From an uncultured Agathobacter sp. (lineage in GTDB: Bacteria; Bacillota; Clostridia; Lachnospirales; Lachnospiraceae): a stretch of DNA of 64,000 bases. The position numbers and the translations under genes are program-made. Under the pieces are notes generated by a model. The model had not been told where the DNA came from. It ran no database searches and worked only from the letters and a program-made list of their open reading frames with translations. Positions 8,894 through 28,522 of the stretch are shown here, in pieces (position 1 is the first letter of the stretch; every line of letters starts with the position of its first letter). The DNA is taken from the NCBI GenBank assembly GCA_944381555.1, contig CALWLL010000007.1:1-64000 (forward strand), read 5' to 3'.

Positions 8894-9634
8894 GTGGATA
8901 ATAAGGAAGATTTATATGAGAAAGTACCTTTTTACATGACCTACCCAATCCAGAACCTGTATTTGGCAGAGATGGAATATGAGAGGGATCTGGAGCGTAT
9001 GAGAGAACTGTACCCAAGGGAAGTACAGCAGATTGTGCGTCTGGTGCAGCAGCGCTGTGATGAGTTGGAGCAGGAAGGCAGCAGAATGTATGATGAAAAT
9101 CCTGACCGTTTTATGATGGAGCAGGAGGCTTGCAGACTATTTGAAAGATTTTTGCAGGAAAATCCTCAGTTTAGACCGGAATCAATGCAAAGACCGGAAC
9201 CAATGCCGACGCCGATGCCAATGCCAAGGCCGGAACCAATGCCGACGCCGATGCCAATGCCAAGACCAGAGCCAAGACCTGTGCCGGGAAGACAGGGAAT
9301 GCCGCAGCTAAGAAATTCTGAAATAGAACAGGATGAAATATCTGCACAGAATCGAAGGAGTGACAGGAACCAAAGAGGCGGCTGGGACCAAAGAGGTGAC
9401 TGGAACCAAAGAGATGACTGGGGCCAAAGAGGAAACTGGGATAGAAGAGGAAATTGGGATAGAAGGGACGATAGGGACCGAAGAGACGATAGGGACCGAA
9501 GAGACGATAGACGCCAAAGAGATGACAGAGGCTGTGAAAACTCATGGTTATGCAGCTTAATAGGTGTAATTTTTAATGATGAAGTATACCGGCGCAGATG
9601 CAGAAACAGAAGATGCAGACGTTGGAATATGTAA
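8894..9634 (+). CDS. Low-complexity repeat protein, possibly a spore-coat or surface protein
   Basis: 246 residues, GTG start with GGAGAG about 6 bp upstream. Residues 1-95 look folded and mostly helical (Tyr/Glu/Arg-rich). Residues ~97-135 are Pro/Met repeats of a 12-residue unit (PEPMPTPMPMPR), encoded by a 36-bp direct repeat. Residues ~150-215 are Arg/Asp/Gln/Gly/Trp repeats of the WDQRGD and DRRDD type. The Cys/Arg-rich end resembles spore-coat proteins of Clostridia, but I cannot assign a family. The next gene starts 23 bp downstream and is probably cotranscribed. Confidence 0.75.
   Translation: MDNKEDLYEKVPFYMTYPIQNLYLAEMEYERDLERMRELYPREVQQIVRLVQQRCDELEQEGSRMYDENPDRFMMEQEACRLFERFLQENPQFRPESMQRPEPMPTPMPMPRPEPMPTPMPMPRPEPRPVPGRQGMPQLRNSEIEQDEISAQNRRSDRNQRGGWDQRGDWNQRDDWGQRGNWDRRGNWDRRDDRDRRDDRDRRDDRRQRDDRGCENSWLCSLIGVIFNDEVYRRRCRNRRCRRWNM
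9190..9530 (+). repeat. Tandem coding repeats (36-bp Pro/Met units, then Arg/Asp-rich units)
   Basis: Two near-identical 36-bp units start at about 9194 and 9230 and encode the Pro/Met repeat. From about 9360 to 9520 a series of shorter 15-21 bp units encodes Trp-Asp-Gln-Arg-Gly and Asp-Arg-Arg-Asp blocks. Such arrays change length by slippage and often vary between strains. Confidence 0.8.
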
Positions 9635-13090: not shown

Positions 13091-13127
13091 AAATGGAGCG
13101 GGATTTAAAAATCCCGCTCCATTTTTG
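13091..13127 (+). terminator. Rho-independent terminator before the exopolysaccharide operon
   Basis: A strong hairpin with arms AAATGGAGCGGGATT and AATCCCGCTCCATTT around a short loop, followed by T residues. It isolates the Pel-like operon from the upstream HPr/DUF6465 genes, so that operon needs its own promoter in 13128-13245, where I could not pick a convincing one. Confidence 0.85.
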
Positions 13128-13245: not shown

Positions 13246-13632
13246 ATGAACATTTTACTACAGTTAATAGCAATTACAGTGTGTCTGCTTATGTGTTATG
13301 GCCTGATTGCAAAAACAAAAAAGAAAGAACTGTCAGAAAGTCAGGCATTTATGTGGCTGGTGGGAACACTTGGGCTGCTATTTTTGTCATTCTTCCCTGG
13401 AGTTATTACCTGGGCGGCAGACTTGCTGGGAGTTTGGTGGGCGCCTGCGACTTTAATCTTTTTTCTTATTGTTGTAATTATTCTGATTCTTTTTCATCAT
13501 ACAATTTCCGTTACGGCTTTAGAGTCTAAAGTAACGGAACTGGCGATGCATATGATTTTATTAGAAGAAAAAAACAAAGAGTTGGAAAATAGATCAGCAT
13601 TATCTGAAAAAGAGGGGGAATCACAGGAATGA
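13246..13632 (+). CDS. DUF2304-family small membrane protein, first gene of the Pel-like operon
   Basis: 128 residues from ATG 13246 (AGGAGG 8 bp upstream; the in-frame ATG at 13216 has none). There are three hydrophobic segments (about 2-20, 33-50, 58-80), then a C-terminal helical tail rich in Glu and Lys. This is the DUF2304 layout, a family usually encoded beside Dpm-like GT2 glycosyltransferases that make polyprenyl-phosphate sugars. The likely partner GT2 is in the same operon at 18844. Its stop overlaps the next start (ATGA at 13629), showing translational coupling. Confidence 0.8.
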   Translation: MNILLQLIAITVCLLMCYGLIAKTKKKELSESQAFMWLVGTLGLLFLSFFPGVITWAADLLGVWWAPATLIFFLIVVIILILFHHTISVTALESKVTELAMHMILLEEKNKELENRSALSEKEGESQE

Positions 13633-15713
13633 AAATATTAATATGCGGCGAATATGGGGTGTTTTGTAAGGAACTTATCAGCAGAATGAAAAAAGAAGGA
13701 TATGACGTATTTGTGATTACCGGCTCGGAGAAGCCAAGACGCAAAAAGCCAAAGAGCGGTGTATTCCAAGACTATAATTTCAGCTACCGCAGTAAGAGTA
13801 TCGGGACGGTCATGAAAAATATAAAAGCAGACGTTATGATTATACTTGGCACTTGTGATGTTAAGTATACATGGGAAGATGAAAAGAAAGAATCCGTAAG
13901 ATACCTGTCGGGAATGATCAATCTGCTGTTAAATGCAAAGCAGGCAGGAGTGCCGGAGGTAATCTATTGCTCATCCTTAGGCGACTCTGAGGATTCGGAG
14001 ATGGAAAAAACCTATAGACAGGTAGAAACGGTATGTACCCAGCAGAGTGAAGCGGGAAAATGTGCTATCACCACAATTCATTTTCCTGAAATTTACGGGG
14101 AAATACGGACAAAAAGACCGGATATCTGCGCAGAATTAGTGGAAGAGGTGTGGGAAAAGGATGAAATAGTCATTCACGGAAACCGTCCTCACAGGATATT
14201 ATATGTAAAAGATGCGGCAGACGCAGTAATGCGTGTTTTTAGCAGCAAAAGCCAAGAGCGCAGGCATCTGGCAGAGGGGAGTGTACATACCGAGGAGGAA
14301 ATTATCTCAGCGGTAAAAGATGTAATTGGAGATAGGAACGTAATGATTACGGATATACCGGTCCAAGAAAAAAATCTAACAGAGGCGAAGGAACCGGAAA
14401 AAAGTACAATGGGATTTTTGGAAAAGTACAGTTTGCGGGATGGATTGAATGAATATTACAAATTATTCATAAAGGAAAGAAATGCCTCTCTTTATAAAAA
14501 AGAGGAAAGAGGCAGTATCCGAAAATCTTTGATACCCTTTGCGGAGAATGCTGCCTTATTCTTAATTGTTACTCTGTTTACTTATTTGCTTCGTTCAACC
14601 TGGGTAGGGGAGAATGTTAATCTTTATCTCTTCTATATGATAATCATTGCAACAGTTTACGGATGCAATCAGACGATGGCAGCCGCCTTTTTCATGATTG
14701 CAGAAAGGGTAGCCGCCTTTTTCTGGCAAAGTTCAGAGTTTACATATACGGCATTTGCAGATGTACTTCAGGTCCTAATTGCAGGTGTATTTGTCGGATA
14801 TATGCATGACCGGTATAAAAGGAGATTAGAAAATCTCGAGGATGAAAAGAAATATTTCCAGAGTGAATTGCTGGATATGACCAGAATTTATGATGGCAGC
14901 CGATATATCAAGGAAGTATATGAACAGCGCCTGATGGGATATAAGATGAGTATGCCGAAAGTTTATGAATTGACAAGCGCCTTGGATTTCTGGGAGCCGC
15001 AAAAGGTAGTCTTTCAGGCAGTTGATGTGGCAAGAGAACTATTGGAAATAGAGGATGCAGCCATTTACATTGCAGGAAAAGAAGAAACATATCTCCGCCT
15101 TACGGCTTCCTCATCTGAACTTGCGCGCTCCCTTGGCGGGTCTCTTTGTGTGGATAACGACTTTTTCATGCGCGATGAACTTCTGGAAAGAACGGTATTT
15201 TGCAATAAAGAGATGAAACCGGAGCTTCCAACATATGCCTGCGGCATTTACGCGGAAGAAAAGCTGATTGCAATTATGATGTTGTGGACACAGGATCTTT
15301 CAAAGGTAAATTTATATGAGTCAAACACGCTTGCAGTATTAGGAAAGCTGATCGGAAGTTCTCTGGGAAGAGCAAGAACTATCTGGAATGGATATATGAA
15401 TCCGTACATTCATAACACAAACATTCTGAAAGAGGAAAGCTTTGATAACATTTTCGCGTTGTGCAGAGAAGGAAAAGAACAAAACAAAGTGATATATTCC
15501 CTGTTAAAAATTCCGCAGGAAGAAGTTGATGTGAAAACGGAATTGTTGTTTGGCAATATAAACCGCCTCGTTCGTGAAACCGATTATGTGGGACAGAAAA
15601 AAGATGGCTTGTATATCATTCTGCTGAATGCAAGTAAAGAAGAGGCTGATTTCGTGGAGTCGAGGTTTAAGGAAGCAGAAATTAAGGTGGAAAATTTAGG
15701 CGATAGGGGATGA
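13629..15713 (+). CDS. pelD: SDR-PelD fusion: c-di-GMP receptor-like regulator of Pel synthesis
   Basis: 694 residues. Residues 1-~240 are an SDR/epimerase-like Rossmann domain with degenerate features: the nucleotide loop is GEYGVFCKE, and the YxxxK site reads Y129-R-Q-V-E133. Residues ~302-392 form about four membrane segments, then a coiled coil (~393-415), a GAF-like domain (~430-580) and a degenerate GGDEF domain (~600-694). In the last, GGDEF has become KDGLY (658-662), but the inhibitory-site RxxD survives as Arg649-Glu-Thr-Asp652, exactly five residues upstream. This matches PelD, which activates the PelF synthase on binding c-di-GMP. The SDR fusion probably has a structural role. Confidence 0.85.
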   Translation: MKILICGEYGVFCKELISRMKKEGYDVFVITGSEKPRRKKPKSGVFQDYNFSYRSKSIGTVMKNIKADVMIILGTCDVKYTWEDEKKESVRYLSGMINLLLNAKQAGVPEVIYCSSLGDSEDSEMEKTYRQVETVCTQQSEAGKCAITTIHFPEIYGEIRTKRPDICAELVEEVWEKDEIVIHGNRPHRILYVKDAADAVMRVFSSKSQERRHLAEGSVHTEEEIISAVKDVIGDRNVMITDIPVQEKNLTEAKEPEKSTMGFLEKYSLRDGLNEYYKLFIKERNASLYKKEERGSIRKSLIPFAENAALFLIVTLFTYLLRSTWVGENVNLYLFYMIIIATVYGCNQTMAAAFFMIAERVAAFFWQSSEFTYTAFADVLQVLIAGVFVGYMHDRYKRRLENLEDEKKYFQSELLDMTRIYDGSRYIKEVYEQRLMGYKMSMPKVYELTSALDFWEPQKVVFQAVDVARELLEIEDAAIYIAGKEETYLRLTASSSELARSLGGSLCVDNDFFMRDELLERTVFCNKEMKPELPTYACGIYAEEKLIAIMMLWTQDLSKVNLYESNTLAVLGKLIGSSLGRARTIWNGYMNPYIHNTNILKEESFDNIFALCREGKEQNKVIYSLLKIPQEEVDVKTELLFGNINRLVRETDYVGQKKDGLYIILLNASKEEADFVESRFKEAEIKVENLGDRG

Positions 15714-15717
15714 TGTA

Positions 15718-16644
15718 TTGGAAAAAGTAATGGCAGTTGTATTGATACTAAACGGATTAAGTTCCCTGTTATATTTTCTATATTGGGCATGGAAGAAAAA
15801 AGAAGTAAAGCGGGCAGGCATTGTTGCATTATTTATCCTGATTATTCCAGTCGTCGGGGCGGTTTTTCTAATCGGGGCAGAACTGGTTAATATTGTTTTC
15901 TTTCATAAAAAAAAGGCAAAGCTCAGCGAAGATGAGCTGGGCTTTAGCAAAAAAAGGGAAAGGATGATAGTCGGCAATGATATCGAAAAAGAAAAAAATA
16001 CTGTTCCGATTGACGAAGCTTTGCGCATTTCCAATAATATCGACAAGCGCCAGATGTTATTGGAGATACTAAAGCGGGAGGATACGGATAATTACATAGA
16101 GGGGTTTCAAATGGCAATGGAACAAAGTGACACAGAGGTCGTGCATTATGCCGCTGCTTATATTTCCGATACGATTGTAAAGTATAAGGAAAGCGAAAAG
16201 CAGTTACGCGCCCGCTGTGAAAAGGACAGAGAGGATAATCCAAAGATAATTAGTGAATATCTTGGTCTTTGTGGAGATATTCTGGAGAAAAATATCTTTA
16301 CCGGAATTGAACAGAAGATGTATGCGGACAATTATGAGAAATATTTAGAATTTTTATATAACAAGGCTTGGCAAGAGGTTGACGGCAGGAAGATAGAACG
16401 GATGATTGCTTTAAAGAAGCAGGAAAAAAATGATGCCGGGGTAAAGAAGTGGATTATTCGTGCAGAAAGAATTTTGGAAACAGATATAGATGCTGCAAAA
16501 GCGGTTTTGAAATATTACTTCTATATTAAAGATTATACGAAATTTAGAAATGTCTTAGAGGTCATCAGGAAATCGGATTTAAAGCTTGATAGTGAGCTTG
16601 TAGGCTGGATTAGATTTTATGCCATAGACAGAGGAAGATTATGA
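15718..16644 (+). CDS. pelE: PelE-like membrane protein with helical-repeat tail
   Basis: 308 residues, TTG start at 15718 with GGGGATG upstream; ATG 15730 is the alternative. Two N-terminal membrane segments (about 5-22 and 29-58) are followed by a soluble, all-helical region that looks like TPR-type repeats. PelE has this same layout (two membrane segments plus TPR) and sits between PelD and the synthase in the inner-membrane complex. Sequence identity to known PelE is not obvious by eye, so the name rests on topology, size and position right after pelD. Its stop overlaps the next start (ATGA). Confidence 0.65.
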   Translation: MEKVMAVVLILNGLSSLLYFLYWAWKKKEVKRAGIVALFILIIPVVGAVFLIGAELVNIVFFHKKKAKLSEDELGFSKKRERMIVGNDIEKEKNTVPIDEALRISNNIDKRQMLLEILKREDTDNYIEGFQMAMEQSDTEVVHYAAAYISDTIVKYKESEKQLRARCEKDREDNPKIISEYLGLCGDILEKNIFTGIEQKMYADNYEKYLEFLYNKAWQEVDGRKIERMIALKKQEKNDAGVKKWIIRAERILETDIDAAKAVLKYYFYIKDYTKFRNVLEVIRKSDLKLDSELVGWIRFYAIDRGRL

Positions 16645-18881
16645 ATTGGGAAAATTTTTGGACTATTTGCGGCAGTACGTTTTATTATTGCATTCTGACG
16701 TTATGGATACCGTCGCTTTGTTTTGGAAGGTATGTGAAAAAAAAGAATCTGACATTCCGTTTTTTCTTCTATCAATGTACCGGTAATTTATATATCACAT
16801 TTGTAGTATGGGGGCTTGGACTTTGTCATGGAGTTCATTTTGCAACCCTGCTTCTGACCCTTATAATTCTGCCGCTATTCTGGTGTTATCTCCAGAACAG
16901 ACAAATGCTTCGGAAAAAATGGAGAATGGCAAAAAGTGTACTTTCTATGCTGACACACAGAACCTATGGGAAGCATGTTCTAGGCAGAGAAATCATAGAC
17001 ACATGCCGAAAAAAGAGAAAGTCATTTTACATAAAACATATCAAAGGCAGAGAAACCGAGCTGCTGGTATCCGGTCTGGTAATGGTATGGGTGGTATGGT
17101 TTTACGGATGGTATAAATTTCACAATGTGGCATATGCCCATACCGATGAAGAAACGCATTTATACTGGATTAGCGAGCTGCTGCATGGAAACATTTTTCC
17201 GGCAGGCATATATCCACACGGGATGCACACATTGGTAGCCGCAATTGCAGGCCTGTCCGGTATGACAATATACAGGGTATATATCATGTTTTCCGTGATG
17301 TCAGCCGCGCTTGTATTTGCATCTGCCTACCTGTTTATAAGAAAGTGTTTTACAAACAGTTATGTGGCACTGGCGGGATGGATTTTCTTTGTTTTTACGG
17401 ATATATTCCAGCCAGTCTCTTATTTTAGATTTCAGATTTCATTTCCAATGGAATTTGGGCTGGTAGCAGCATTTGGACTACTTTCTGCTCTGATTGAATA
17501 TATAAAGAGTAAAGAAAAAGCAGATTTGATTTTGTTTTCCTTATGTATCACATGGACGCTGATGGCGCATTTTTATGTTACCATCTTTTGTGCTGTTATC
17601 TGCGTATGTTTCGGCGTTGTTTACCTGTACATCCTGTTTAAAAAGAAGGTGCTGATACAGTTGGTATTGGGAGGGATAACAGGAATTATCCTTGCATGTG
17701 TTCCGTATGCAATGGGATATGCCCTTGGTTATTCGTTTGAAAGATCTATTGGGTGGGCTTTGGGAATTTCATCAACCACATCCGAGACAGATGCAGAAAA
17801 GGAAGAAGAGGAAACGCCAAAGGAGCAGGAAATTCCAGAGAACGCATCTGTTTTTGAAAAAGAGATGGTCTATCTGACGAAAAATTTCGTGCGGGAGAAG
17901 GAAGCTGCAAAGGTGCTGCTGATTGCCAATAAGGTCTTTTTGATGTATGGGCTCTTAGGTATTCTTTTTGCAAAGAGAAAAGAAGTCTTTATGAGATATC
18001 TCTTTCTGGCAGTTTTGTGGGAGGCAGGAGCCATTTTGGCGTGTACCTATTACCTGAACACAATAACGCTCATAGAAGTTAAGAGAATGGCAACGTTTTT
18101 GACGTTCCTGACCATTCCTGTCTTCTGTATGCCTTTTGATATGCTGTATCGGTTTCTGAAATGTCTGAAATGCAGAAGAAACCGCATACAGTGGATATTA
18201 GCAGCACTTACGGTTGGAGAAATTGTAGTTTTATTTCTAACCGGCAATAAAAAAGAGAAAAAGGATTTGTATTATGAGATTATAGCGACAGAGGCTGACG
18301 TTAAAACCTGCCTTGAACTTTTGGAAAATGGAAAAAAGCATACTTGGACAGTTATTTCCCCGACAAATGATTTATCGATCATACGATATGATGGATATCA
18401 TTATGAAATAACAGATCTGGTCCGGGAATTAGATGGTGGGGAAGAGGAGATATATATTCCGACGGAAGAGATTTACGTTATATCGGAGAAGAAAGCGATA
18501 TCCTTTCTCAGTGCGAAAAGAAAAATTGACCGAAGTGATGTTGCAGCAGATAAATATGTGAAGAAAATCAGTGCAGAACTGGCACTTTCCGATGTTGACT
18601 GGGAACTGGAGCAGGATGAGATTCATTCTTTGGATGCGCCTTACTATTTTCAGAGAGAAACACTTATGTCTAAGCTGCACTACTGGATTTGGGCTGTCAG
18701 CCTGATATATCCGAATCATGTTTCTGTCTTCTATGAGGATGAACAGGTTTGTGTTTATAAGATAGAACAGGATCCTTATTTTATGCTTAATCTTTCTGTA
18801 GATTACAAAATACTTGCAAACGAAGAGTTGTGGGGGAAAGACAATGAAAAAAATACTTATGGTTATACCTGCGTACAATGA
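16641..18881 (+). CDS. GT-C-like multi-pass membrane protein
   Basis: 746 residues. About 12-13 hydrophobic segments span residues ~1-540, followed by a soluble C-terminal domain (~550-746). After the first long membrane helices, an acidic loop reads AYAHTDEETHLYW. This Asp-Glu in the first extracellular loop is typical of GT-C glycosyltransferases (ArnT/PMT type), which use polyprenyl-phosphate sugars. It sits in the operon directly before the Dpm-like GT2. The proposed role is transfer of a lipid-linked sugar to the extracellular polymer. Generic Pel loci do not need such an enzyme. Family assignment is inferred from topology and the acidic loop. Confidence 0.6.
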   Translation: MNWENFWTICGSTFYYCILTLWIPSLCFGRYVKKKNLTFRFFFYQCTGNLYITFVVWGLGLCHGVHFATLLLTLIILPLFWCYLQNRQMLRKKWRMAKSVLSMLTHRTYGKHVLGREIIDTCRKKRKSFYIKHIKGRETELLVSGLVMVWVVWFYGWYKFHNVAYAHTDEETHLYWISELLHGNIFPAGIYPHGMHTLVAAIAGLSGMTIYRVYIMFSVMSAALVFASAYLFIRKCFTNSYVALAGWIFFVFTDIFQPVSYFRFQISFPMEFGLVAAFGLLSALIEYIKSKEKADLILFSLCITWTLMAHFYVTIFCAVICVCFGVVYLYILFKKKVLIQLVLGGITGIILACVPYAMGYALGYSFERSIGWALGISSTTSETDAEKEEEETPKEQEIPENASVFEKEMVYLTKNFVREKEAAKVLLIANKVFLMYGLLGILFAKRKEVFMRYLFLAVLWEAGAILACTYYLNTITLIEVKRMATFLTFLTIPVFCMPFDMLYRFLKCLKCRRNRIQWILAALTVGEIVVLFLTGNKKEKKDLYYEIIATEADVKTCLELLENGKKHTWTVISPTNDLSIIRYDGYHYEITDLVRELDGGEEEIYIPTEEIYVISEKKAISFLSAKRKIDRSDVAADKYVKKISAELALSDVDWELEQDEIHSLDAPYYFQRETLMSKLHYWIWAVSLIYPNHVSVFYEDEQVCVYKIEQDPYFMLNLSVDYKILANEELWGKDNEKNTYGYTCVQ

Positions 18882-19575
18882 AGAAGAAAATATTGGGAGT
18901 CTTTTGGAAGAAATAAAGGAGAAACAATTAGAGGAGAAAATAGATGTTTTAGTCATTGATGACGGGTCCGCAGACCGGACAGAGCAGATCGTGCGTAAGA
19001 AGGGATTTCGTGTAATCCGCCAGATTTTTAATATGGGATATGGCGCGGCGCTTCAGACTGCTTATAAATACGCGGTGGAGAAGGGGTATGATTATTTACT
19101 GCAGTTAGATGCAGATGGTCAGCATGACTTAAAGAATATTTGTGTCATGTGTGAAAGACTGGGATGTTTTTCTAAAGAGGGAACCTTCCCCGATATTATC
19201 ATAGGCTCGCGTTTTCTGGAGGGAAGCCAGAGCTTTTATATGTCAAAGCTTAAGATGTTTGCTATTAAGCTGTTCCGGGGGGTAATTAAAAAAAATACAG
19301 GGAACAGCCTGACAGATCCAACAAGCGGATTGCAGGGATTAAACCGGAAGGCCTTTTCTTTTTACGCGGGCTACAGGAACTTCGACTTAAAGTACCCGGA
19401 TATGAATATGATTCTCCAGATGCTCCTTCTGGGGTATAAAATTGAAGAATTTCCGGCAATCATGCATGAACGTACAGCAGGAACGTCAATGCACAGTGGA
19501 CTTCTGAAAGAGGGAAAATATATGATTCTGATGTTTTTTAGCAGTTTAAATGCCTGCTTGAGATACAGGAAATGA
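18844..19575 (+). CDS. Dpm/ArnC-type GT2 glycosyltransferase
   Basis: 243 residues, soluble GT-A fold. It has MVIPAYNEEENI at the N-terminus, VIDDGSADRT for nucleotide binding and DADGQHD as the metal-binding DxD region. This is the dolichol-phosphate-mannose-synthase-like group, which moves a sugar from a nucleotide donor to polyprenyl phosphate. The start at 18844 is set by GGGGGAAAG 3-11 bp upstream; the frame also opens at a TTG at 18814. It overlaps the upstream gene by 38 bp. It lacks membrane helices, which the DUF2304 protein (13246) may supply. Confidence 0.88.
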   Translation: MKKILMVIPAYNEEENIGSLLEEIKEKQLEEKIDVLVIDDGSADRTEQIVRKKGFRVIRQIFNMGYGAALQTAYKYAVEKGYDYLLQLDADGQHDLKNICVMCERLGCFSKEGTFPDIIIGSRFLEGSQSFYMSKLKMFAIKLFRGVIKKNTGNSLTDPTSGLQGLNRKAFSFYAGYRNFDLKYPDMNMILQMLLLGYKIEEFPAIMHERTAGTSMHSGLLKEGKYMILMFFSSLNACLRYRK

Positions 19576-19582
19576 GATTCGG

Positions 19583-21190
19583 ATGAAAAAACGTGGAAAG
19601 CATATAAAGGAAAATCAGTTAAGGAAAAACCTGTTTCTGCAAATTGTAACGGTGCTTTTTTTAATGCTCGTCGCATTTATTATCTATAGTAATTTGAAAT
19701 ATATTCTTATTGATCAGAAAAAGCAGGCCCAAAAAGAGAAATGGCAGCAGAATATCGTACAGGTAGTAGAAAACGCCAAAAAGGAGAGGATACCAGAGCA
19801 GGAGTGCGGTGAGCAGAGTGAGGTATATCTCTGGGGAAGCCAGTCAAATGGCCGGCAGCTTACAAAATCCCAGTTAAATAACATGAAAATCAGTTATGCA
19901 GAGAAAGATGAACTTTTGGATTGCGCTCAAGCCTCCCTGCTGTTTGTGACAAAATCCACTTTTTTAGAAGATGAGATAGCGCTGCTGAATGAATGGGTTC
20001 AAAACGGGATGATAGTTTTTTTTACCGAGATACCGGAGGAGGCAGAATTAAGAAAAAGCTCTGTACGGAATCTCCTTGGGATTGACAGTTATAAGGGCAT
20101 GATAAAAGATGGGGGAATACGCCTTTCGGAAGCATTGCTTTTTGATGAAATTGCAGAGAGCAGTGGAGACACAGAGGTTAATAATATTACGCTGACCAGA
20201 CAGACGGAGGTGTTTGCCCAGAGTCTTGAAAAGAAAATCCCTATGTTCTGGCGGTATAAGCAAAGCGTAAATACGGGATGTGTGTATGTGGCGGACGCAT
20301 TGTTGCTGGAGCAGAAAACGGGATATGCTGTTGTCAGCTTTTTGTTTGAGAATATCAATGAAAGCTTCATGTATCCAATTGTAAATGCATATTGTTTTAT
20401 GGTGCTTGGAATGCCTTATACCGGGGATGCAGAAAATATCTCAAAGGAATATCTGGAGTCTGTTTACGGAAAAAATGCGCTCGGCGTGCAGAATGATATT
20501 TTTTTCCCGGAGATATGCCGCTGCGAGGACAAATACAGTCTTGAGGTAAGCTGGTATAGTGCGCAGAAAGAGGCAGTAGAGGAAAGCAGCGACCCGCTCA
20601 TTCGGTATTATGTCAGAAGTCAGAAAGAACAGATTGGAGAATGGAATCCAAATACAAAAGAAGCTAAGGCTTTTGCGGCAGTTGATAATTGTCTTGAAGA
20701 ATGGACGCCGCAGTTTTGCTGGATGGACGAAGAACAGGTCCGCATTCCGTATACGGATATTACCACAGAAGAATACAGGGCTGTTTTGGTACAGAACCTA
20801 GCGACGGTAAAAGGCTTGGGATTTATTGCATCAAGCATCAATATCAGCAGTTTTTTAAGTGAGGAAAGCGGCGCTGACTGGATTGATTTTTGCAATAACC
20901 TGGAATCTGTGCTTGGAACAGAAAAACAGGAAATTACATGGTTAGACAGGGTTTCGGCACAGGAGGCGGTGTACCGGATCAGCGCTTATGAGGTTATGGA
21001 ACCGCATATAAGCTATGCTTCGGATGGCATTGAGATTCAGATTGATTGTTTTACGGGCAGGGCTTACTTCTATTTACATACAGGAAAAGAGATAAAAGGC
21101 GTCTTACATGCAGAGGCAGCAGAGATTGCGGAGGATTTGTATATGGTTACGGTGACAGAAGAAACCGCAAGGATAGAATTTTATCAATAA
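19583..21190 (+). CDS. DUF2194-like secreted/anchored protein of the Pel locus
   Basis: 535 residues. A basic N-terminus and one hydrophobic segment (about 16-35) anchor an extracytoplasmic domain. The first half looks alpha/beta with a GATase-like character. The second half resembles a degenerate polysaccharide-deacetylase-like barrel, ending in a beta domain. I recall DUF2194 proteins beside pelF in Clostridia, and that is the basis of the name. It sits where pelA (deacetylase/hydrolase) would be expected, so it may process the polymer outside the cell. I cannot identify catalytic metal ligands. Confidence 0.55.
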   Translation: MKKRGKHIKENQLRKNLFLQIVTVLFLMLVAFIIYSNLKYILIDQKKQAQKEKWQQNIVQVVENAKKERIPEQECGEQSEVYLWGSQSNGRQLTKSQLNNMKISYAEKDELLDCAQASLLFVTKSTFLEDEIALLNEWVQNGMIVFFTEIPEEAELRKSSVRNLLGIDSYKGMIKDGGIRLSEALLFDEIAESSGDTEVNNITLTRQTEVFAQSLEKKIPMFWRYKQSVNTGCVYVADALLLEQKTGYAVVSFLFENINESFMYPIVNAYCFMVLGMPYTGDAENISKEYLESVYGKNALGVQNDIFFPEICRCEDKYSLEVSWYSAQKEAVEESSDPLIRYYVRSQKEQIGEWNPNTKEAKAFAAVDNCLEEWTPQFCWMDEEQVRIPYTDITTEEYRAVLVQNLATVKGLGFIASSINISSFLSEESGADWIDFCNNLESVLGTEKQEITWLDRVSAQEAVYRISAYEVMEPHISYASDGIEIQIDCFTGRAYFYLHTGKEIKGVLHAEAAEIAEDLYMVTVTEETARIEFYQ

Positions 21191-21201
21191 GGGAGAGAAA
21201 T

Positions 21202-22605
21202 ATGAAAGTATGTTTGATAGTAGAAGGGGCATATCCGTATGTGACGGGCGGTGTTGCGAGTTGGGTACAGCATTTGCTGCAAAGTATGCCGGATGTAGAA
21301 TTTGTGATTCAAACAATTGCTGCAACCGCAGATTCCGGGCAGCAGTTTAAGTACAGGATACCGCAGAATGTGACGCAGATACAAGAGGTATATCTGTTAG
21401 CGGATGACTATATGACTCATAATGTGCAAAAAAAAATCCGTCTGACAGGAGAAGAATATGACGCTTTTGAAAGCCTGATTTTTGGGGAGAATCCTGATTG
21501 GAACCTCATTATCCGCTTTTTTGCAGAAAAAGAGGTGTCTTTAAATGCTTTGCTGGCAGGAAAAGATTTCTTAAAAATGACTACTGATTTTTATAACGAG
21601 TACTACAAAAGAGTTGTCTTTTCTGATTTCCTTTGGACCATGCGCTCGCTTTTTTTACCGCTGTTTACCATCTTGAAATCCAGAGTAGAGAAGGCGGATT
21701 TATATCATTCGGTTTCCAACGGATATGCGGGAATATGGGGAAGTCTCCAGAAATGTATGACAGGCAGACCATTTCTTATGACGGAGCATGGTCTTTATGT
21801 TCGTGAACGGGAAGAAGAAATTATCAAGGCAGACTGGGTAAACGGTATTTATAAAGAAATATGGATTGAGCAGTTTAAAAAGATTGGGAAATGCTGTTAT
21901 GATTTTTCGGACTGTGTAGTTTCTTTGTTTGAGGATGCAAGAAAACTTCAGATTGAAATGGGATGTAAGCCGGAAAAAACACTGGTCATTCCAAACGGGG
22001 TAAATTACAGAAATTTCGGGAACATTGCACAAAAGGATCCGGAGGATGAAAGGATTAATATAGGCGCGGTACTAAGAGTGACGCCGATTAAGGACATTAA
22101 GACCATGCTGACGGCATTTGCCATTGCAAAAGAAAAAGAGCCAAAGTTAAAACTCTGGGTTATGGGCGGAATGGAGGAGTCTAGGGAATATGCAGAAGAA
22201 TGTCTGGAAATGGTTGAGGATATGCAGATTCAGGATGTAGAGTTTACAGGAACTATACAGGTAAAAGATTATATTGGAAAGATGGACTTTTTGATTTTAA
22301 CCAGTCTAAGCGAGGGACAGCCGCTTTCAATTCTGGAAGGCTTTGCGGCCCGAAAGCCGTATATTGCCACAAATGTAGGAAACTGTAAGGGTCTGATTTT
22401 AGGAGAACAGGATGACTATGGAAGAGCAGGTTATGTCGTTCCGGTTATGGGGGTAAATGAGATTGCCAAAGCAATACTAAAACTTGCCGAAGATAAAGAA
22501 GGACGCGAGAAAATGGGAGAAACGGGATACCATCGTGTATGCGTGCATTATGACGAGGAACAAGTGTTTCGAAGATACCGGCAGTTGTATGAGGAATTGA
22601 TTTAA
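21202..22605 (+). CDS. pelF: PelF, GT4-family Pel polysaccharide synthase
   Basis: 467 residues, cytoplasmic GT-B fold. The N-terminal VEGAYPYVTGGVASWVQ is the hallmark of PelF/DUF3492. The C-terminal half carries ALRVTPIKDI, and the nucleotide-sugar-binding EX7E motif reads EGQPLSILE. PelF polymerises the N-acetylhexosamine backbone from UDP-sugars. The start at 21202 follows GGGAGAG; the frame opens further upstream at 21046 but overlaps the previous gene. It is 18 bp ahead of pelG, as in other Pel loci. Confidence 0.93.
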   Translation: MKVCLIVEGAYPYVTGGVASWVQHLLQSMPDVEFVIQTIAATADSGQQFKYRIPQNVTQIQEVYLLADDYMTHNVQKKIRLTGEEYDAFESLIFGENPDWNLIIRFFAEKEVSLNALLAGKDFLKMTTDFYNEYYKRVVFSDFLWTMRSLFLPLFTILKSRVEKADLYHSVSNGYAGIWGSLQKCMTGRPFLMTEHGLYVREREEEIIKADWVNGIYKEIWIEQFKKIGKCCYDFSDCVVSLFEDARKLQIEMGCKPEKTLVIPNGVNYRNFGNIAQKDPEDERINIGAVLRVTPIKDIKTMLTAFAIAKEKEPKLKLWVMGGMEESREYAEECLEMVEDMQIQDVEFTGTIQVKDYIGKMDFLILTSLSEGQPLSILEGFAARKPYIATNVGNCKGLILGEQDDYGRAGYVVPVMGVNEIAKAILKLAEDKEGREKMGETGYHRVCVHYDEEQVFRRYRQLYEELI

Positions 22606-22623
22606 GGCAAAGAAGGAGATATT

Positions 22624-24081
22624 ATGGCTGGAATTGGATTTGAATTAAAGAAAATTTACCGGAAAGAGGGAATTACCAGAGGTGCCCTGGGCGCAGTTTA
22701 CAGCACCATAGTTACGCTTGGTCCTATGATTTTTTCTATTTGTACGATTTTAATTCTGTTCTTTTTTTTGAAAATAGAGGATGTAAGTTATGCGCAAAGA
22801 GAGTTAATTTCCTCAACAATCTTATATGCATTTATTTTTTCCATGATTATTACAGCGCCATTTAACGTTGTATTTTCCAGATACATTGCAGATAAGTTTT
22901 ATAAGGAGGAGTATTCCGGTATTTTAAATTCCTATTATATGGGGATTTCAGTATGCGCAGGAATTGCCTCTTTGCTGTTTGTGCCGGTTGGACTGAGTCT
23001 GCGGATACGCGGGAATGTAGAATTATCTTATATTTTGGCTTCTTATGTTCTTTGGCTTGCCCTGATAATTCTTTTCTTTTCCATTATTTATCTTCATGCA
23101 ACAAAAGATTATAAGATGATTACCCTCTTTTTTGTTTCAGGCTCAGTGATTACCCTCCTTTTAGGCGTGTTCCTTTACAAAAGAGGCGGGATGGATATAA
23201 AACATGTGGTTATTTGTTCTCTGGCAGCAGGATTTCTGATAACTGCAATACAGGTTTTCGCTTATATGAAACGCTATTTTTCTTTTTCAGAAGATAGTTA
23301 TTCGGAATGCCTGCATTATATGTATACTTACAAGGAGTTGCTCCTTGCAAATGTATGTTATTCCCTCGGTCTGTATGTTCATAATTTTGTCATGTGGACA
23401 GTGCCGGGGCATTCCGTCGCCGCAAAAACATTTTATACAAATCAGGCATATGACATGGCGACCTATCTTGCAATGATGACCAATATTTTTATTATGGTTG
23501 TGTTTACGGTGTCTGTAGAAACAAAATTCCACACAGCCTACAAGGCATATATGGAAGCTGTTTTGGGCGGAACATATAAAATGGTATCAAAAGGAAGAAA
23601 AAAGCTGTTTCGAACGCTTTCTCAGCAGATGGGACAGATTTTTACAACCCAGATGGCAATTACCTGTGTCATATATCTGCTTGTGATTTCATTTGGTCCG
23701 AGTATTGGAATCGATAGTGTAACTCTTGCTATCTATCCCGCGCTGGTAGTGGCGTTTCTGGGAATATTTATGATGTATGGAAATCTGGTATATCTATATT
23801 ACTTTTCTGATTTAAAAGGCGCATCTTTAACGGGAATGATTTTCTTTGTGGTTACATTGATAGGAAGTATTATTTCCAGCGGCTATGGTGCGCCTTTCTG
23901 GGGAGTAGGAGTTTTAGCCGGAATGCTTGCAGGATGGAGTTACAGTTTTTTCCGGATACGGTGGATTGAGCGGAATATAGACGCTTATATTTTTTGCGGC
24001 TTTAAGGTTGTAGATACTATGAAATCATCAAATAAGGGCAAAGTTATATATGTCAGCACAGATGGAAACGCAAAAGAGTAA
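22624..24081 (+). CDS. pelG: PelG, MOP-superfamily Pel transporter
   Basis: 485 residues with about 12 hydrophobic segments. The N-terminus GIGFELKKIYRKEG followed by the first membrane helix is characteristic of PelG. PelG forms the inner-membrane Pel complex with PelD and PelE and exports the chain made by PelF. AGGAG lies 6 bp before the start. The next gene overlaps its 3' end by 32 bp. No outer-membrane components (PelB/PelC) occur, as expected for a Gram-positive. Confidence 0.92.
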   Translation: MAGIGFELKKIYRKEGITRGALGAVYSTIVTLGPMIFSICTILILFFFLKIEDVSYAQRELISSTILYAFIFSMIITAPFNVVFSRYIADKFYKEEYSGILNSYYMGISVCAGIASLLFVPVGLSLRIRGNVELSYILASYVLWLALIILFFSIIYLHATKDYKMITLFFVSGSVITLLLGVFLYKRGGMDIKHVVICSLAAGFLITAIQVFAYMKRYFSFSEDSYSECLHYMYTYKELLLANVCYSLGLYVHNFVMWTVPGHSVAAKTFYTNQAYDMATYLAMMTNIFIMVVFTVSVETKFHTAYKAYMEAVLGGTYKMVSKGRKKLFRTLSQQMGQIFTTQMAITCVIYLLVISFGPSIGIDSVTLAIYPALVVAFLGIFMMYGNLVYLYYFSDLKGASLTGMIFFVVTLIGSIISSGYGAPFWGVGVLAGMLAGWSYSFFRIRWIERNIDAYIFCGFKVVDTMKSSNKGKVIYVSTDGNAKE

Positions 24082-26461
24082 AAAGAGGAGTTTAAAATTA
24101 AATATTGCAGCAAGTTTAATCATACAGGTGGTATCACTGATAACAAATCTCATATCCAAGGGGGCAATAAAACACTATCTGGGCGTGGATTATCTTGGTA
24201 TGCAAAGCGTCTACGCAAACTTCTGTGACGTGATGTCTTTTGCCTTTTTCGGGATGGGTACGGCAATGCTGTTTAGTCTGTATGGGCCATTTGCCCGGAA
24301 TGAAAAGGAAAAACAGGCAGCATATTTCCAGTATTATGACAGGATATACCAAAAAATCAGTATAGCCGTCCTTGCCTTTGGCGCAGTTTCAACAACTGCA
24401 ATGGTTGTTTTGATCCGTTCTGAAATAGAGGTTATAGAAATCTGCTGCACATATCTGCTCTTTATGCTGTCAGTGGTGCTTTACAACCGCCAGTTGGTCC
24501 GCAATTTTTTTATCCAGGCAGACCAAAAGCGTTATGTTGTAGCAATTGCAACAGGAGGAGTGGATATTCTGGCTCTTGCTGTGCAGATTTTTGTACTGAA
24601 GTATTTTCACAGTTATATCCTGATGGTAACCGGTATTCTTTTCAAAAACCTTCTGATCAATGCTCTTTTGAAAATTTACCTAAAAAAAGAATACCCTTAT
24701 ATTTTTCGGAATGAAGCAAGCCTCTTGGAAGAGGAGAAACAAAAAACAAAAGAAAACATCGTTTCTATGGGGATATATCGGTTTGGAAATGTGTTAATCA
24801 ATAATACGGACAGTATTTATATATCTTATTTCATAAATACGGCTACGGTTGGAATTTACACAAACTATATGTTTATAATCACTGGTATCCGTAGTCTTAT
24901 CAGTGCGCTTTATGAAGCAATCCGGGGAAGAGTGGGACATCAGATCCAGACAAGCAGCAAAGAAAAGCAGTATCAGGGATTTGTGATAAACGCTCTTATC
25001 AATTCATGGCTGATGGGCGTATGTGTCGTTTGTTTTTATTTTCTGGTTCAGGATTTTATCAGGCTGTGGATGGGAGAGATTGATGTTTTTCCGGAGAAAA
25101 TCCTATGGATTTTACTGATTAATTTTTATCTGGAGGCATCCCATAATACGATTCGGATATATCGGGAGTCAATGGGAATGTTTCAGAAGATACGAAATGC
25201 GATTCTGCTGAAAGGGATTATGAATATTATTCTTTCCTATTTTGGCGGAAAACTGTTTGGCTTATCGGGTATTCTGATTGCAACGACCATTTCTTCGTTT
25301 ACTACGCTGTTCTGGTACGAGGCAAAGATCGTATACGCTTATTATAAGAAAAATTTTTTATACGAGTTGTTCTATCATGGGATTACCATTGCCTTTATGG
25401 CTGTGTCCTTCTTTCTGACAGACCTGCTGGCAGGGGACATGGAAGCAAATACCATAGGAAGTTTTATCATAAAAGCGTCTCTGTGTGCAGGAATATCGAA
25501 TCTGATCTATCTGCCGGTATTTTTATTATACATATTAAAAAGGAAACGCTCAAAATCGTATAAAATGCAGGAGAGAAATCCATTCTTCGATGAGTATCCC
25601 TATTTATGTTCCTGTTTCCATATAAAAAGAAATACAAAGGTGGAACAAAGAGAAGCAGATGCAAAAGAATTGATTTCTCCGTACCGGCTTGATTTTATGT
25701 CTAAGATATTACTTTTAGAGGCAATGAACGGTTCTTATGATATAAAAAAAGCAGAGCATTTATATGAACGCCATCTGTACGCCTTTTCCAGCGGTATAAT
25801 GATTGAGCCGGGACAAAAGGAAAAGAGTGGTATTCAAAGCTATTTAGACGCATTCAGCCAGATAGAGAAATCGACAAAGAAGGAGGAGGCTCTGGCAGCA
25901 AGACTAGGGGCTCCGGTTCCGGTAGATGCAAAACTTATGGCAATGGATGGGGCACACAGGATCTGCTCCGCTATTTATTACCACAAATGGATACCTGTGT
26001 ACTTCCTTAATCGGACAGTTCCGAATAAATATGATTATCTGTTTTTCAGAAGACGTTTTCTGGAAGAGAAGCTCATCCTTGAAATGGTAAGAAAATATGT
26101 GAAGATGAAAGAATGCTGTCTCTATCTTTTGCCGAAGAGTATATCTGGTCATAGCCTGCGTAAGATATATAAGACATACGCTCCGGTTTATATGAAGAAG
26201 ATGAACTCAAAAGAAGTTGTTTTGCTTCTGGATTTACCGTATATCAGAAGGCTTGGAGCGGACAGCGGGGCAGAAAGGCTGAACAAATACGTTATGGTAG
26301 ACAGCAGTCAGAAAATTATAGGATATTTGTTGGAGAATGAGGCTAATCTGGTAAAGCAGACCGTTTTCACAAAAACGTACATCAGATATGCGTCTTTTTT
26401 GCAGATGGTATGGGCTTATACCAGAAGAATTATAAATAGTATGTTAAGGAGACCGGTATGA
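24050..26461 (+). CDS. Wzx-like flippase fused to a ParB/Srx-like domain
   Basis: 803 residues. Residues ~15-495 are a MOP-superfamily polysaccharide flippase (12-14 hydrophobic segments), related to O-antigen/teichoic-type exporters and distinct from PelG. Residues ~500-803 are soluble. Within them, VPVDAKLMAMDGAHRI (about 622-638) resembles the ParB/sulfiredoxin-like core, whose D-G-x-H-R motif binds or hydrolyses nucleotide. Such domains appear as nucleotide-using enzymes in glycan clusters, but I do not know of one fused to a flippase. ATG 24050 is kept as start; ATG 24062 is the alternative. Confidence 0.7.
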   Translation: MSAQMETQKSKKRSLKLNIAASLIIQVVSLITNLISKGAIKHYLGVDYLGMQSVYANFCDVMSFAFFGMGTAMLFSLYGPFARNEKEKQAAYFQYYDRIYQKISIAVLAFGAVSTTAMVVLIRSEIEVIEICCTYLLFMLSVVLYNRQLVRNFFIQADQKRYVVAIATGGVDILALAVQIFVLKYFHSYILMVTGILFKNLLINALLKIYLKKEYPYIFRNEASLLEEEKQKTKENIVSMGIYRFGNVLINNTDSIYISYFINTATVGIYTNYMFIITGIRSLISALYEAIRGRVGHQIQTSSKEKQYQGFVINALINSWLMGVCVVCFYFLVQDFIRLWMGEIDVFPEKILWILLINFYLEASHNTIRIYRESMGMFQKIRNAILLKGIMNIILSYFGGKLFGLSGILIATTISSFTTLFWYEAKIVYAYYKKNFLYELFYHGITIAFMAVSFFLTDLLAGDMEANTIGSFIIKASLCAGISNLIYLPVFLLYILKRKRSKSYKMQERNPFFDEYPYLCSCFHIKRNTKVEQREADAKELISPYRLDFMSKILLLEAMNGSYDIKKAEHLYERHLYAFSSGIMIEPGQKEKSGIQSYLDAFSQIEKSTKKEEALAARLGAPVPVDAKLMAMDGAHRICSAIYYHKWIPVYFLNRTVPNKYDYLFFRRRFLEEKLILEMVRKYVKMKECCLYLLPKSISGHSLRKIYKTYAPVYMKKMNSKEVVLLLDLPYIRRLGADSGAERLNKYVMVDSSQKIIGYLLENEANLVKQTVFTKTYIRYASFLQMVWAYTRRIINSMLRRPV

Positions 26462-27528
26462 GTGTCGAAATCAGCTTTATTATACCTGTCTACAACGGAG
26501 AAAAGTGGATTTTGCGCTGTATCCATTCCCTTCAGAAATGGGATAAGGAGGAACAGACAGAAATCATTATCGTAAATGATGGTTCAAAAGACGCTACTGG
26601 AGAAATTTGTGAACAGGCAGCGCGGGAGGACGGCAGAATCCGCGTCGTGCATATTGAAAACAGTGGTCAGGGAATTGCCAGAAATAAGGGGCTTCATCTG
26701 GCAGTCGGAGAATATATTCATTTTGTTGATGCGGATGACTGGGTGGATACAGAAAATCTGTATCATTTGTGGCAGAAGGCAAAGGCAAGCGGGGCAGATA
26801 TAGTCATGGGCAGTTATGTAAGAGTAGATGGCTCCCGGCAGGAATGGATTCATCTTCCGAAAGAGGGTTTCGCCGCACGGAAAGGAAAGAAAGAAGAAAT
26901 CAGACTATATCACCGGATAAAAACAGAAAGTTGTTTTGGATATCTTTGGAATAAGATTTACAAAAGGAAATTCCTGATTTCAAATGATTTAAGGCTGGAT
27001 GATATCCGTAAGGTTTATATGGAAGACACATTGTTTAACCTTAAGGTCTGGAGCAAAAGTCCCGTTCTGTTTTGTACAGATGTTCCGGTTTATTACTATG
27101 TTGTGGAGAATGTTTCTACAACAAGAAAAGCAGATGCGCACATTCATATCAAAAACCGCCATATGCTGCAAACGATAATTTCGTATCTGGAGGAGGAGCA
27201 TAAGCTGGAGGAAAATCTGGATATGGTAATTCCTTTAATTATGCGGACCTTCTGCTGGTCTGCGCTGAAGAATGTGCCATATGAAGGAAACTCATTGCCG
27301 AAACTAAAAGAAAGAATCCATACGTTTACGGATGACGGGAAATTGCAGCAGATTATTCGGAAAAAAGGTGCAGGCAGGTATTTGTTTTTCCTGCCGTCTT
27401 ATGCGCAGAGAGTATTTTATTCATTTTGTCTGCTTATTCTGCGGAAAAAGATGGCAAATGTCTGTGCGCTTATGTTTTTTTGTCTGTGCCCGTTATTCAT
27501 ATCGTATACAAAAATTGTGTTAAAGTAG
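26458..27528 (+). CDS. GT2-family glycosyltransferase
   Basis: 356 residues. The N-terminal GT-A domain has FIIPVYNGEKW, IIVNDGSKD and the DxD region FVDADDW. The C-terminal ~130 residues are helical, with a hydrophobic, basic tail that may attach to the membrane. This is the group of enzymes that add single sugars to lipid-linked or capsular repeats. Its start overlaps the flippase gene's stop by 4 bp, so it belongs to the same operon. Donor and acceptor are unknown. Confidence 0.9.
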   Translation: MSVEISFIIPVYNGEKWILRCIHSLQKWDKEEQTEIIIVNDGSKDATGEICEQAAREDGRIRVVHIENSGQGIARNKGLHLAVGEYIHFVDADDWVDTENLYHLWQKAKASGADIVMGSYVRVDGSRQEWIHLPKEGFAARKGKKEEIRLYHRIKTESCFGYLWNKIYKRKFLISNDLRLDDIRKVYMEDTLFNLKVWSKSPVLFCTDVPVYYYVVENVSTTRKADAHIHIKNRHMLQTIISYLEEEHKLEENLDMVIPLIMRTFCWSALKNVPYEGNSLPKLKERIHTFTDDGKLQQIIRKKGAGRYLFFLPSYAQRVFYSFCLLILRKKMANVCALMFFCLCPLFISYTKIVLK

Positions 27529-27535
27529 GAAAAAA

Positions 27536-28522
27536 ATGATTAGTGTAATCGTACCGGTATATAATGTAAAACAATATCTTAACAAGTGCGTAGACTCTGT
27601 TTTGCGTCAGACAAAACAGGATTTTGAACTGATTTTAGTGGATGACGGTTCTACAGACGGATGTGACATTATCTGCGATGAACTGGCAAAAACAGATGAA
27701 AGAATCCGGGTTATTCATCAGCAGAACCAAGGTCTTTCCGCAGCCAGAAATACGGGGCTGAAAGCGGCTTTGGGGGAATGGATTGCCTATATCGACAGCG
27801 ATGACTGGATTGAAAGCCGGTACTTGGAAGTCCTTTATCGAAATGCAATAGAATGCAGGGCTCAGGTTTCCGTATGTTCATTTGAACCGGTATGGGAGAA
27901 ACAGAGGGAAGAACTGACCGGGAGACCGGAAGAAAAACCCGAGGTACTTACCGGAAGGGAAGCGGCAAAGAGGATTGTAAGAGATAGTCAAAAAGCGATG
28001 ATTACTGCATGGGGAAAACTATATCATAATAGTCTGGCGGAATTATTGGAATATCCTGTAGGAAAACTGCATGAAGATGAGTTTGTGACTTACCGGGTGC
28101 TGTATGCTGCGGAAAAAGCAGCGGTAAGTACGATGCCTCTGTATAAATATTTGCAGCGTCCCGGAAGTATCATTCATACCGGATATAGTGAACGCAGGCT
28201 GGATAAGCTGGAGGCGTTAAAAGAGGCCTGTATTTTTTTCTCACAGAAAGCAGATGACGAAATGGCGGCAGCAGCTTTAAAACGCTACCTGATAAACATT
28301 CAGATTGCATGGTACCGCATAAGAAGGAGTATGCCGGAAAAGAAAGAGTTGGAAATGAATTTACAACAGGAGTGGGAAAAGGTCTATCAGGGAAACCGGG
28401 ATAGGATTTTTCAGGCCGGCACAAGGACAGACAAAATTACGATTCTGGTTTTTAAAGTGTCGCCGAAGGTTTATGGCATGATTGCGGGAATATATATACG
28501 AATATTTCCAGAGAGAGGATAA
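27536..28522 (+). CDS. GT2-family glycosyltransferase
   Basis: 328 residues with VIVPVYNVKQYL, LVDDGSTDG and DSDDWIE (the DxD) in the N-terminal GT-A domain and a helical C-terminus. It starts 7 bp after the preceding GT2 gene and is the last gene of the operon that begins at 13246. Together with the previous GT2 and the flippase-ParB fusion it could build a short repeat or side chain distinct from the PelF product. A tRNA pair on the opposite strand follows. Confidence 0.9.
   Translation: MISVIVPVYNVKQYLNKCVDSVLRQTKQDFELILVDDGSTDGCDIICDELAKTDERIRVIHQQNQGLSAARNTGLKAALGEWIAYIDSDDWIESRYLEVLYRNAIECRAQVSVCSFEPVWEKQREELTGRPEEKPEVLTGREAAKRIVRDSQKAMITAWGKLYHNSLAELLEYPVGKLHEDEFVTYRVLYAAEKAAVSTMPLYKYLQRPGSIIHTGYSERRLDKLEALKEACIFFSQKADDEMAAAALKRYLINIQIAWYRIRRSMPEKKELEMNLQQEWEKVYQGNRDRIFQAGTRTDKITILVFKVSPKVYGMIAGIYIRIFPERG

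Follow-up and report, generated by a model that had tools for sequence, protein, structure and literature searches.

A Pel-type operon of gut clostridia that carries a predicted lipid-linked glycosylation module and a PelA homologue lacking its active site

Introduction

In Pseudomonas aeruginosa and Bacillus cereus the exopolysaccharide Pel is reported to be undetected without deacetylase activity, and it has been suggested that failed deacetylation signals synthesis to stop (PMC13254593). What, then, is made by a Pel operon whose deacetylase homologue has no active site? The question is raised by an operon at positions 13246-28522 of contig CALWLL010000007.1 (assembly GCA_944381555.1), from an uncultured Agathobacter sp. 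of the Lachnospiraceae; by the window we mean the whole stretch analysed, positions 1 to 64,000 of that contig, forward strand. The operon encodes Pel proteins together with a GT-C-type membrane glycosyltransferase, a predicted synthase resembling dolichol-phosphate mannose synthase (Dpm), a DUF2304 protein, a putative second flippase and two family 2 glycosyltransferases (GT2). Here we present strong sequence evidence that loci of this class keep a PelA homologue that has lost its catalytic residues, and we think it reasonably probable, judging from sequence and predicted structure, that their Pel-type polymer is glycosylated instead of de-N-acetylated during export, with the dead deacetylase serving as a polymer-binding scaffold. 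In the open-access PMC literature, covered mostly at title and abstract level, we found no account of a glycosylated Pel or a dead PelA.

Results

Eleven plus-strand open reading frames (ORFs) occupy 13246-28522, with neighbours spaced by -38 to +18 nt when inner ATGs within longer ORFs are taken as the starts at 13246, 18844 and 21202. In order, and preceded by a hairpin, they are:

13091..13124, plus strand: terminator-like hairpin 5' of the operon, a 15-pair stem with 7 G-C pairs and then a T-rich tail (consensus match only)
13246..13632, plus strand: DUF2304 small membrane protein, predicted GacJ/WpsB-like partner of a lipid-linked sugar synthase (PF10066, 8e-23)
13629..15713, plus strand: PelD with an N-terminal short-chain dehydrogenase/reductase (SDR)-like domain and an RxxD motif near the C terminus (Epimerase, 7e-9; clusters with PelD of 46 other loci)
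15718..16644, plus strand: PelE (by position and by membership of a family whose 49 homologues lie between PelD and the pel gene that follows)
16641..18881, plus strand: GT-C glycosyltransferase, predicted to transfer a lipid-linked sugar outside the cell (AlphaFold2 model, predicted local distance difference test score (pLDDT) 83; best Foldseek matches STT3, DPY19 and AftA; D169 and H173 invariant)
18844..19575, plus strand: Dpm-like GT2, predicted polyprenyl-phosphate sugar synthase (PF00535, 5e-22)
19583..21190, plus strand: homologue of the PelA deacetylase (DUF2194, CE26-like), all six catalytic residues lost (PF09960, 3e-16, N-terminal half)
21202..22605, plus strand: PelF, backbone polymerase (NCBIfam PelF, 367 bits, cut-off 100; DUF3492, 3e-76)
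22624..24081, plus strand: PelG, exporter (PF16933, 3e-114)
24050..26461, plus strand: Wzx-like flippase with an extra C-terminal part of ~300 residues (NCBIfam WZX_like, 29 bits, cut-off 300)
26458..27528, plus strand: GT2a, predicted to elongate a lipid-linked side chain (PF00535, 3e-39)
27536..28522, plus strand: GT2b, predicted to elongate a lipid-linked side chain (PF00535, 4e-39)

PelF and PelG are thus adjacent, with PelD and PelE upstream, as in a Pel locus. A sequence-only reading had described eleven tightly spaced plus-strand genes forming one block, had named ten of them and had placed the extra genes between pelE and pelF and after pelG. All eleven ORFs are present and the ten names stand, but the DUF2304 gene precedes pelD, and the gene left unnamed encodes the PelA homologue, which provides the strongest evidence presented here. 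Nothing that we found splits the block: its three plus-strand terminator-like matches have 5-6 pairs each and all lie within genes, and its promoter-like matches occur at the shuffled rate (43 observed, 43.4 expected). On these scans, which are weak evidence, we reject several unrelated transcription units, there being no strong internal terminator-like site and no excess of promoter-like matches. The PelE, GT-C-like and Wzx-like proteins gave no match in a Pfam search.

The active site of the B. cereus PelA deacetylase is reported to comprise D262, D263, H350, H354, R458 and H488, and catalytic mutants of that organism have no detectable Pel (PMC13254593). PDB chain 9zau is apparently this enzyme, as its alignment puts the motifs at the published numbers with an offset of 25; an intact family member matched no other chain, and the profile of the window protein's alignment matched 9zau best (7.5e-44). 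We aligned 142 PelA homologues of at least 480 residues each, 104 from loci with GT-C and 38 from elsewhere. In the 104 proteins from GT-C loci four positions (the two metal-site histidines, the arginine and the catalytic histidine) are lost without exception, while the first aspartate is kept in 2 and the second in 21; the window's protein keeps none of the six residues. With duplicates removed, the active site is intact in 0 of 98 proteins from GT-C loci and in 32 of 38 from elsewhere, counts on which a Fisher test ignores relatedness. An alignment-free search found at least three of four motifs in 0/100 proteins from GT-C loci and in 17/21 from loci with CotH, which rules out that the missing residues are an alignment artefact. 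Outside GT-C loci six proteins are not intact: one of the two copies at each of the tandem loci L063, L064 and L067, and the homologues of L081, L164 and L174. We note that the three tandem loci are of CotH type, with one intact and one degenerate PelA homologue side by side, and that their PelG ORF is about 1090 amino acids long, some 600 more than usual.

The window's PelA homologue has 535 residues, against 604-643 in intact single-copy relatives, and its DUF2194 match covers the N-terminal half only. Its structural model (pLDDT 79) first matches the deacetylase Agd3 in the PDB (1.3e-8, template modelling (TM) score 0.48) and then single domains of other enzymes. A PelA homologue is present at 28/28 GT-C loci of the Lachnospiraceae, and dN/dS, calculated by NG86 and near saturation in more distant pairs, lies at 0.05-0.26 in 20 of the 22 closest pairs, the other two giving no value. 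Presence at every locus together with low dN/dS rules out plain pseudogene decay, and the dead PelA homologues look to be under purifying selection. The same retention might be taken to mean that these proteins still deacetylate through another catalytic arrangement. We find this hardly credible, given that four of the catalytic positions are gone in every one of the 104 proteins and that H350, H354 and H488 mutants of the B. cereus enzyme are reported to have no detectable activity (PMC13254593).

The remaining extra genes resemble systems that decorate wall polymers. In streptococci GacI and its partner GacJ, a type of protein described as DUF2304 (PMC8327497), make GlcNAc-P-C55 (N-acetylglucosamine on a lipid carrier); GacK, of Wzx type, flips it, and GacL, which is a GT-C enzyme, transfers the sugar to rhamnan. 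In lactococci WpsA/WpsB make GlcNAc-P-C55, which cytoplasmic glycosyltransferases elongate before a Wzx protein and a GT-C enzyme complete the process (PMC10821137, PMC8035078). As described, GacIJKL and WpsAB/Wzx/WpsJ share with the window a DUF2304-type partner and a GT-C enzyme; they also have a GT-A synthase, a Wzx-type flippase and, in lactococci, elongating glycosyltransferases (PMC10821137, PMC8035078, PMC8327497), for which the Dpm-like GT2, the Wzx-like protein and the two GT2 enzymes of the window are candidates. In the window the partner is recognised by its PF10066 match and the GT-C fold by the predicted model. The reported Gac and Wps acceptors are rhamnan, teichoic acids and other wall polymers, whereas the module of the window is built into a Pel operon.

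The GT-C model (pLDDT 83, predicted TM score 0.85) has 13 Foldseek matches in the PDB at E <= 0.001, all of them GT-C enzymes or complexes, the best being STT3, DPY19 and AftA at TM about 0.4. D169 and H173 are invariant in 23/23 aligned sequences, and we read D169 as the putative catalytic acid. Conceivably this enzyme acts as a ligase, attaching Pel or a lipid-linked glycan to peptidoglycan or to a protein of the cell surface without branching the polymer, as its top structural matches are oligosaccharyltransferases and its model has a C-terminal soluble alpha/beta part; these matches are distant, however, and include the single-sugar enzymes DPY19 and AftA, and the Dpm/DUF2304 pair is known to serve the addition of glycan side chains (PMC10821137), so that we consider a ligase distinctly unlikely. 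For the Dpm-like GT2 the top NCBIfam match is PpgS at 91 bits, below its cut-off of 370; no NCBIfam model scores above its cut-off, and that search gives no substrate. Its nearest PDB chain is the dolichol-phosphate mannose synthase 5mlz (3.5e-10).

Several features of individual loci touch on this module. The window's Wzx-like protein has 803 residues where most relatives have about 500, and its ~300 extra C-terminal residues, which have no Pfam match, contain an MDGAHR stretch that may be reminiscent of ParB/sulfiredoxin-like folds. At L096 a Stealth phosphotransferase and an NTP_transf_5 nucleotidyltransferase (13842-14858 and 16419-17663) lie on either side of the Wzx gene, which suggests phosphate-linked sugars in some side chains. 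At the Dpm-less GT-C locus L148, the gene at 19788-22292, 3' of a hydrolase gene, encodes a GT2 domain fused to four SpaA (prealbumin-like) repeats and is a glycosyltransferase joined to pilin-type domains; weak GT2 matches also lie directly downstream at L122, L127 and L180. A DUF4832 hydrolase gene, common at relatives' loci, had no match in the window's genome in a search whose control gave no match either.

To see how the module is linked to pel in relatives, we used a PelG (PF16933) profile search of 299 Lachnospiraceae genomes, of which 53 matched, the window's own included and G177 weakly; the family is assigned from shared loci, L033 and L120 (titled uncultured Lachnospiraceae bacterium) having an identical GT-C. 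The 54 family loci comprise the window and 53 other above-cut-off PelG places, one 183-base fragment being omitted, and were classed by profiles built from the proteins that these loci encode. GT-C is present at 28 of them, 25 of these having Dpm and 24 DUF2304 (at L069 the DUF2304 gene lies just beyond the fetched stretch). Another 20 carry a set of CotH, polyphosphate polymerase (VTC) and DUF4956, with no GT-C, Dpm or DUF2304; none of that set is labelled in the first 40 kb of the window. Five loci have neither set (L036, L048, L068, L080 and L081), although in the genome of L036 GT-C sits on another contig; the last, L045, is taken up in the Discussion. Across the 299 genomes, 30 of 35 strong GT-C matches fall within 15 kb of PelG. 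The other five are a second copy (G019), an unlinked gene (G025), a fragment (G275), a match in G027, which has pelD, pelE, a PelA homologue, only a short PelF match and no PelG, and one in G001, where the contig stops after pelD, pelE, GT-C and the PelA homologue. Among the DUF2304 matches listed in PelG genomes, a list that leaves out its weak end, 22 of 46 are within 15 kb of PelG and about 0.5 would be expected. These counts rule out chance proximity. The two conditions that would have refuted the sequence-only reading, extra genes rarely found beside pelF and pelG in relatives and a block split into unrelated units, are thus not borne out.

An alignment scan with GT-C of 84,980 species genomes found 194 relatives, the best 80 of which we analysed. 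PelF, PelG or a PelA homologue lies on the same stretch as GT-C at 76 of the 80; of the other four, two (L100 and L116) consist of short contigs and two (L112 and L142) have no pel gene in view. Both PelF and PelG are present at 72 loci, together with Dpm at 62, DUF2304 at 57, a family 4 glycosyltransferase (GT4) at 64 and CotH at none. By record title these best 80 of 194 comprise 54 Lachnospiraceae, 8 Oscillospiraceae, 1 Acutalibacteraceae and 17 other or unplaced genomes, two Bacteroides metagenome-assembled genomes among them. The cultured commensal Schaedlerella arabinosiphila DSM 106076 (L108) also carries the module. At class level, 15 of 391 genomes have PelG above the cut-off, and of 12 new loci fetched one, L172, from another family, has GT-C and shares the window's gene order; at phylum level, 11 of 299 genomes have PelG above the cut-off and GT-C was present in none of the eight loci fetched. 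Among 103 GT-C loci that have PelG, with five pairs sharing an identical GT-C, three main orders occur: PelD-PelE-GTC-PelA-PelF-PelG-DUF2304-GT4-Dpm at 41, an order with GT-C last at 26, and the window's own at 7, one of which has PelG in two pieces; the remaining 29 are variants or cut short. The linkage thus survives reshuffling. One genome with a GT-C pel locus may hold a second, partial set: a separate 10.7 kb contig (L183) carries DUF2304, PelD, a weak GT-C and Dpm.

The frequency of GT4 could suggest a hetero-backbone, in which the extra glycosyltransferases work with PelF in the cytoplasm and GT-C is unrelated. This we hold to be very unlikely: GT4 is absent from the window, elsewhere it usually stands between DUF2304 and Dpm, which fits elongation of a lipid-linked sugar, and PelF retains its full family match. 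A further alternative is that pelDEFG makes Pel and that the DUF2304, Dpm, GT-C, Wzx and GT2 proteins serve to make or modify another glycan, of the wall or capsule, and share only their regulation with Pel. Known systems of this type decorate wall polymers (PMC8035078), the pel genes of Roseburia have been described within a cluster likely to be for capsule or teichoic acid (PMC7112168), and a GT-C paralogue occurs in a non-Pel GT2 locus (L112/L179). Yet each of the three main orders has GT-C and Dpm standing among the pel genes. Both are missing from every one of the 20 CotH-type family loci and track the loss of the deacetylase active site, and Pfam and NCBIfam searches recognised neither a Wzy-like gene nor one for an initiating phosphotransferase in the block. 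A separate glycan therefore seems rather unlikely to us. The sequence-only reading had offered both a Pel-type polymer decorated outside the cell and two polymers made together; conservation across loci supports the former well, and the latter is less favoured because the second flippase and two GT2 enzymes fit the elongation and flipping of a lipid-linked side chain as described in lactococci (PMC10821137).

The PelG and PelF trees place the class on a single branch. Two PelG trees were built, a quick one with 94 rows and a careful one with 62; three long-branch rows were dropped from the latter, and its GT-C rows were thinned. All GT-C loci lie on one side of a PelG branch, together with L036 and L048, with support of 99 in the quick tree and 100/100 in the careful one, and a PelF tree of 88 rows unites all GT-C loci and L036 (support 99). 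In the careful PelG tree L174 and then L164 attach next to the GT-C branch (98/88 and 95/91); the long row L191 was also placed beside it in the quick tree. L174 and L164, both on short contigs, have decayed active sites and no GT-C in view, and may be intermediates. If the root lies outside the GT-C branch, the deacetylase decayed before or together with the gain of GT-C, and since these decayed loci branch beside the GT-C class, loss of deacetylation may have come first.

The RxxD motif near the C terminus of PelD is present in 78/78 proteins of the GT-C class and 23/24 of the CotH class; we take it to be a putative cyclic di-GMP site. Upstream of the operon, 8894-9634 encodes a low-complexity protein with Pro/Met repeats followed by Arg/Asp-rich repeats, and two tRNA genes on the opposite strand come after the operon.

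Discussion

The window shares PelD, PelE, a PelA homologue, PelF and PelG, in the same relative order, with the Gram-positive pelDEADAFG operon as described for B. cereus ATCC 10987 (PMC7112168, PMC13254593), and differs from it in that its PelA homologue has no active site and in the addition of DUF2304, a Dpm-like GT2, GT-C, a Wzx-like protein and two GT2 enzymes. Lacking the intact PelA residues, the locus is not a canonical pelDEADAFG operon but a Pel variant that appears to function as Pel coupled to a glycosylation system of Gac/Wps type. A survey of Gram-positive pel loci reports an SDR-extended PelD and a CotH set (PMC7112168), and the clostridial and streptococcal pel loci with CotH, polyphosphate polymerase, DUF4956 and DUF4832 (PMC7112168, PMC12345266) have the same core and the same SDR-extended PelD as the window. 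They differ in having an intact PelA homologue at 23 of the 24 loci with one of at least 480 amino acids, and in having no GT-C, Dpm or DUF2304 at the 20 family loci.

By homology, PelF would polymerise the backbone, PelG would export it, and PelD and PelE would have scaffolding and regulatory roles. For every Gac/Wps step the window has a candidate, and we propose the rest of the mechanism by analogy. In the cytoplasm the Dpm-like GT2, aided by the DUF2304 protein, would load a sugar onto undecaprenyl phosphate; the two GT2 enzymes would lengthen it, the Wzx-like protein would flip it, and the GT-C enzyme would transfer the lipid-borne sugar or short chain onto the backbone as it emerges. We infer that the acceptor is the Pel backbone because the module genes stand among the pel genes, share their lineage and accompany the loss of deacetylation. 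The PelA homologue, which has lost its site and kept its place, its membrane anchor and its carbohydrate-binding half, most probably retains the polymer at PelG, presenting it to GT-C. An active B. cereus relative is reported to bind N-acetylgalactosamine (GalNAc) oligomers and is modelled at PelG (PMC13254593), and a review speculates that GT-C enzymes of small size may depend on a further protein that binds the polymer (PMC8035078); by analogy, the dead PelA homologue is a candidate for such a protein. A polymer made in this way would probably be branched rather than positively charged. We also put forward, tentatively and at slightly less than an even chance, the broader proposal that a large gut-clostridial branch of Pel has swapped the cationic polymer for a neutral, comb-like one, with side chains built on undecaprenyl phosphate and attached outside the cell, and has kept the pseudo-deacetylase as the acceptor-presenting subunit of an exporter-glycosyltransferase complex.

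Several observations weigh against glycosylation in place of deacetylation. The association between GT-C and dead PelA reflects one origin long kept, not many independent gains. Active-site decay also occurs with no GT-C in view (L164, L174, L081 and the extra tandem copies), and little-deacetylated Pel is not peculiar to the GT-C class, since that of Streptococcus intermedius is reported to be mostly GalNAc although pelADA is needed (PMC12345266). One of the 54 family loci, L045, has GT-C and the CotH set together; L045 and L178 are one locus, which falls in the GT-C class by its core and by its dead PelA homologue. Dpm is missing from the stretch at 10 of the 72 GT-C-seeded loci, where the stretch ends early at L087, L089, L092 and L146 and the lack looks real at L111, L122, L127, L129, L148 and L162, and some GT-C loci have neither Dpm nor DUF2304 nearby. 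Wzx-like homologues are found at a minority of loci (10 of the 28 family GT-C loci and 17 of the 80 GT-C-seeded loci), and the window's own matches WZX_like far below the cut-off. Lastly, with oligosaccharyltransferases among the structural matches of GT-C, the acceptor could be a protein.

The pel loci of Roseburia have been reported to lie inside a larger cluster, and whether they are functional or make another polymer was left open in 2020 (PMC7112168). These loci are probably of the same class as the window: an uncultured Roseburia sp. (L143) has GT-C, a PelA homologue, PelF, PelG, DUF2304, GT4 and Dpm. The figure legend for the Roseburia locus lists GT1, GT2, DUF, PTase and NTase, and the phosphotransferase and nucleotidyltransferase of L096 fit its PTase and NTase; in the text and legend covered here, neither a glycosylation module nor a lost active site is mentioned for these loci (PMC7112168).

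Our findings offer a reading of loci left open in that survey. They describe an entire branch of Pel loci, most of them from Lachnospiraceae and some from Oscillospiraceae, that shows no intact deacetylase yet keeps the protein beside a predicted lipid-linked glycosylation module. The GT-C branch makes the purpose of Pel deacetylation directly testable, and it predicts a new class of branched exopolysaccharide in gut commensals.

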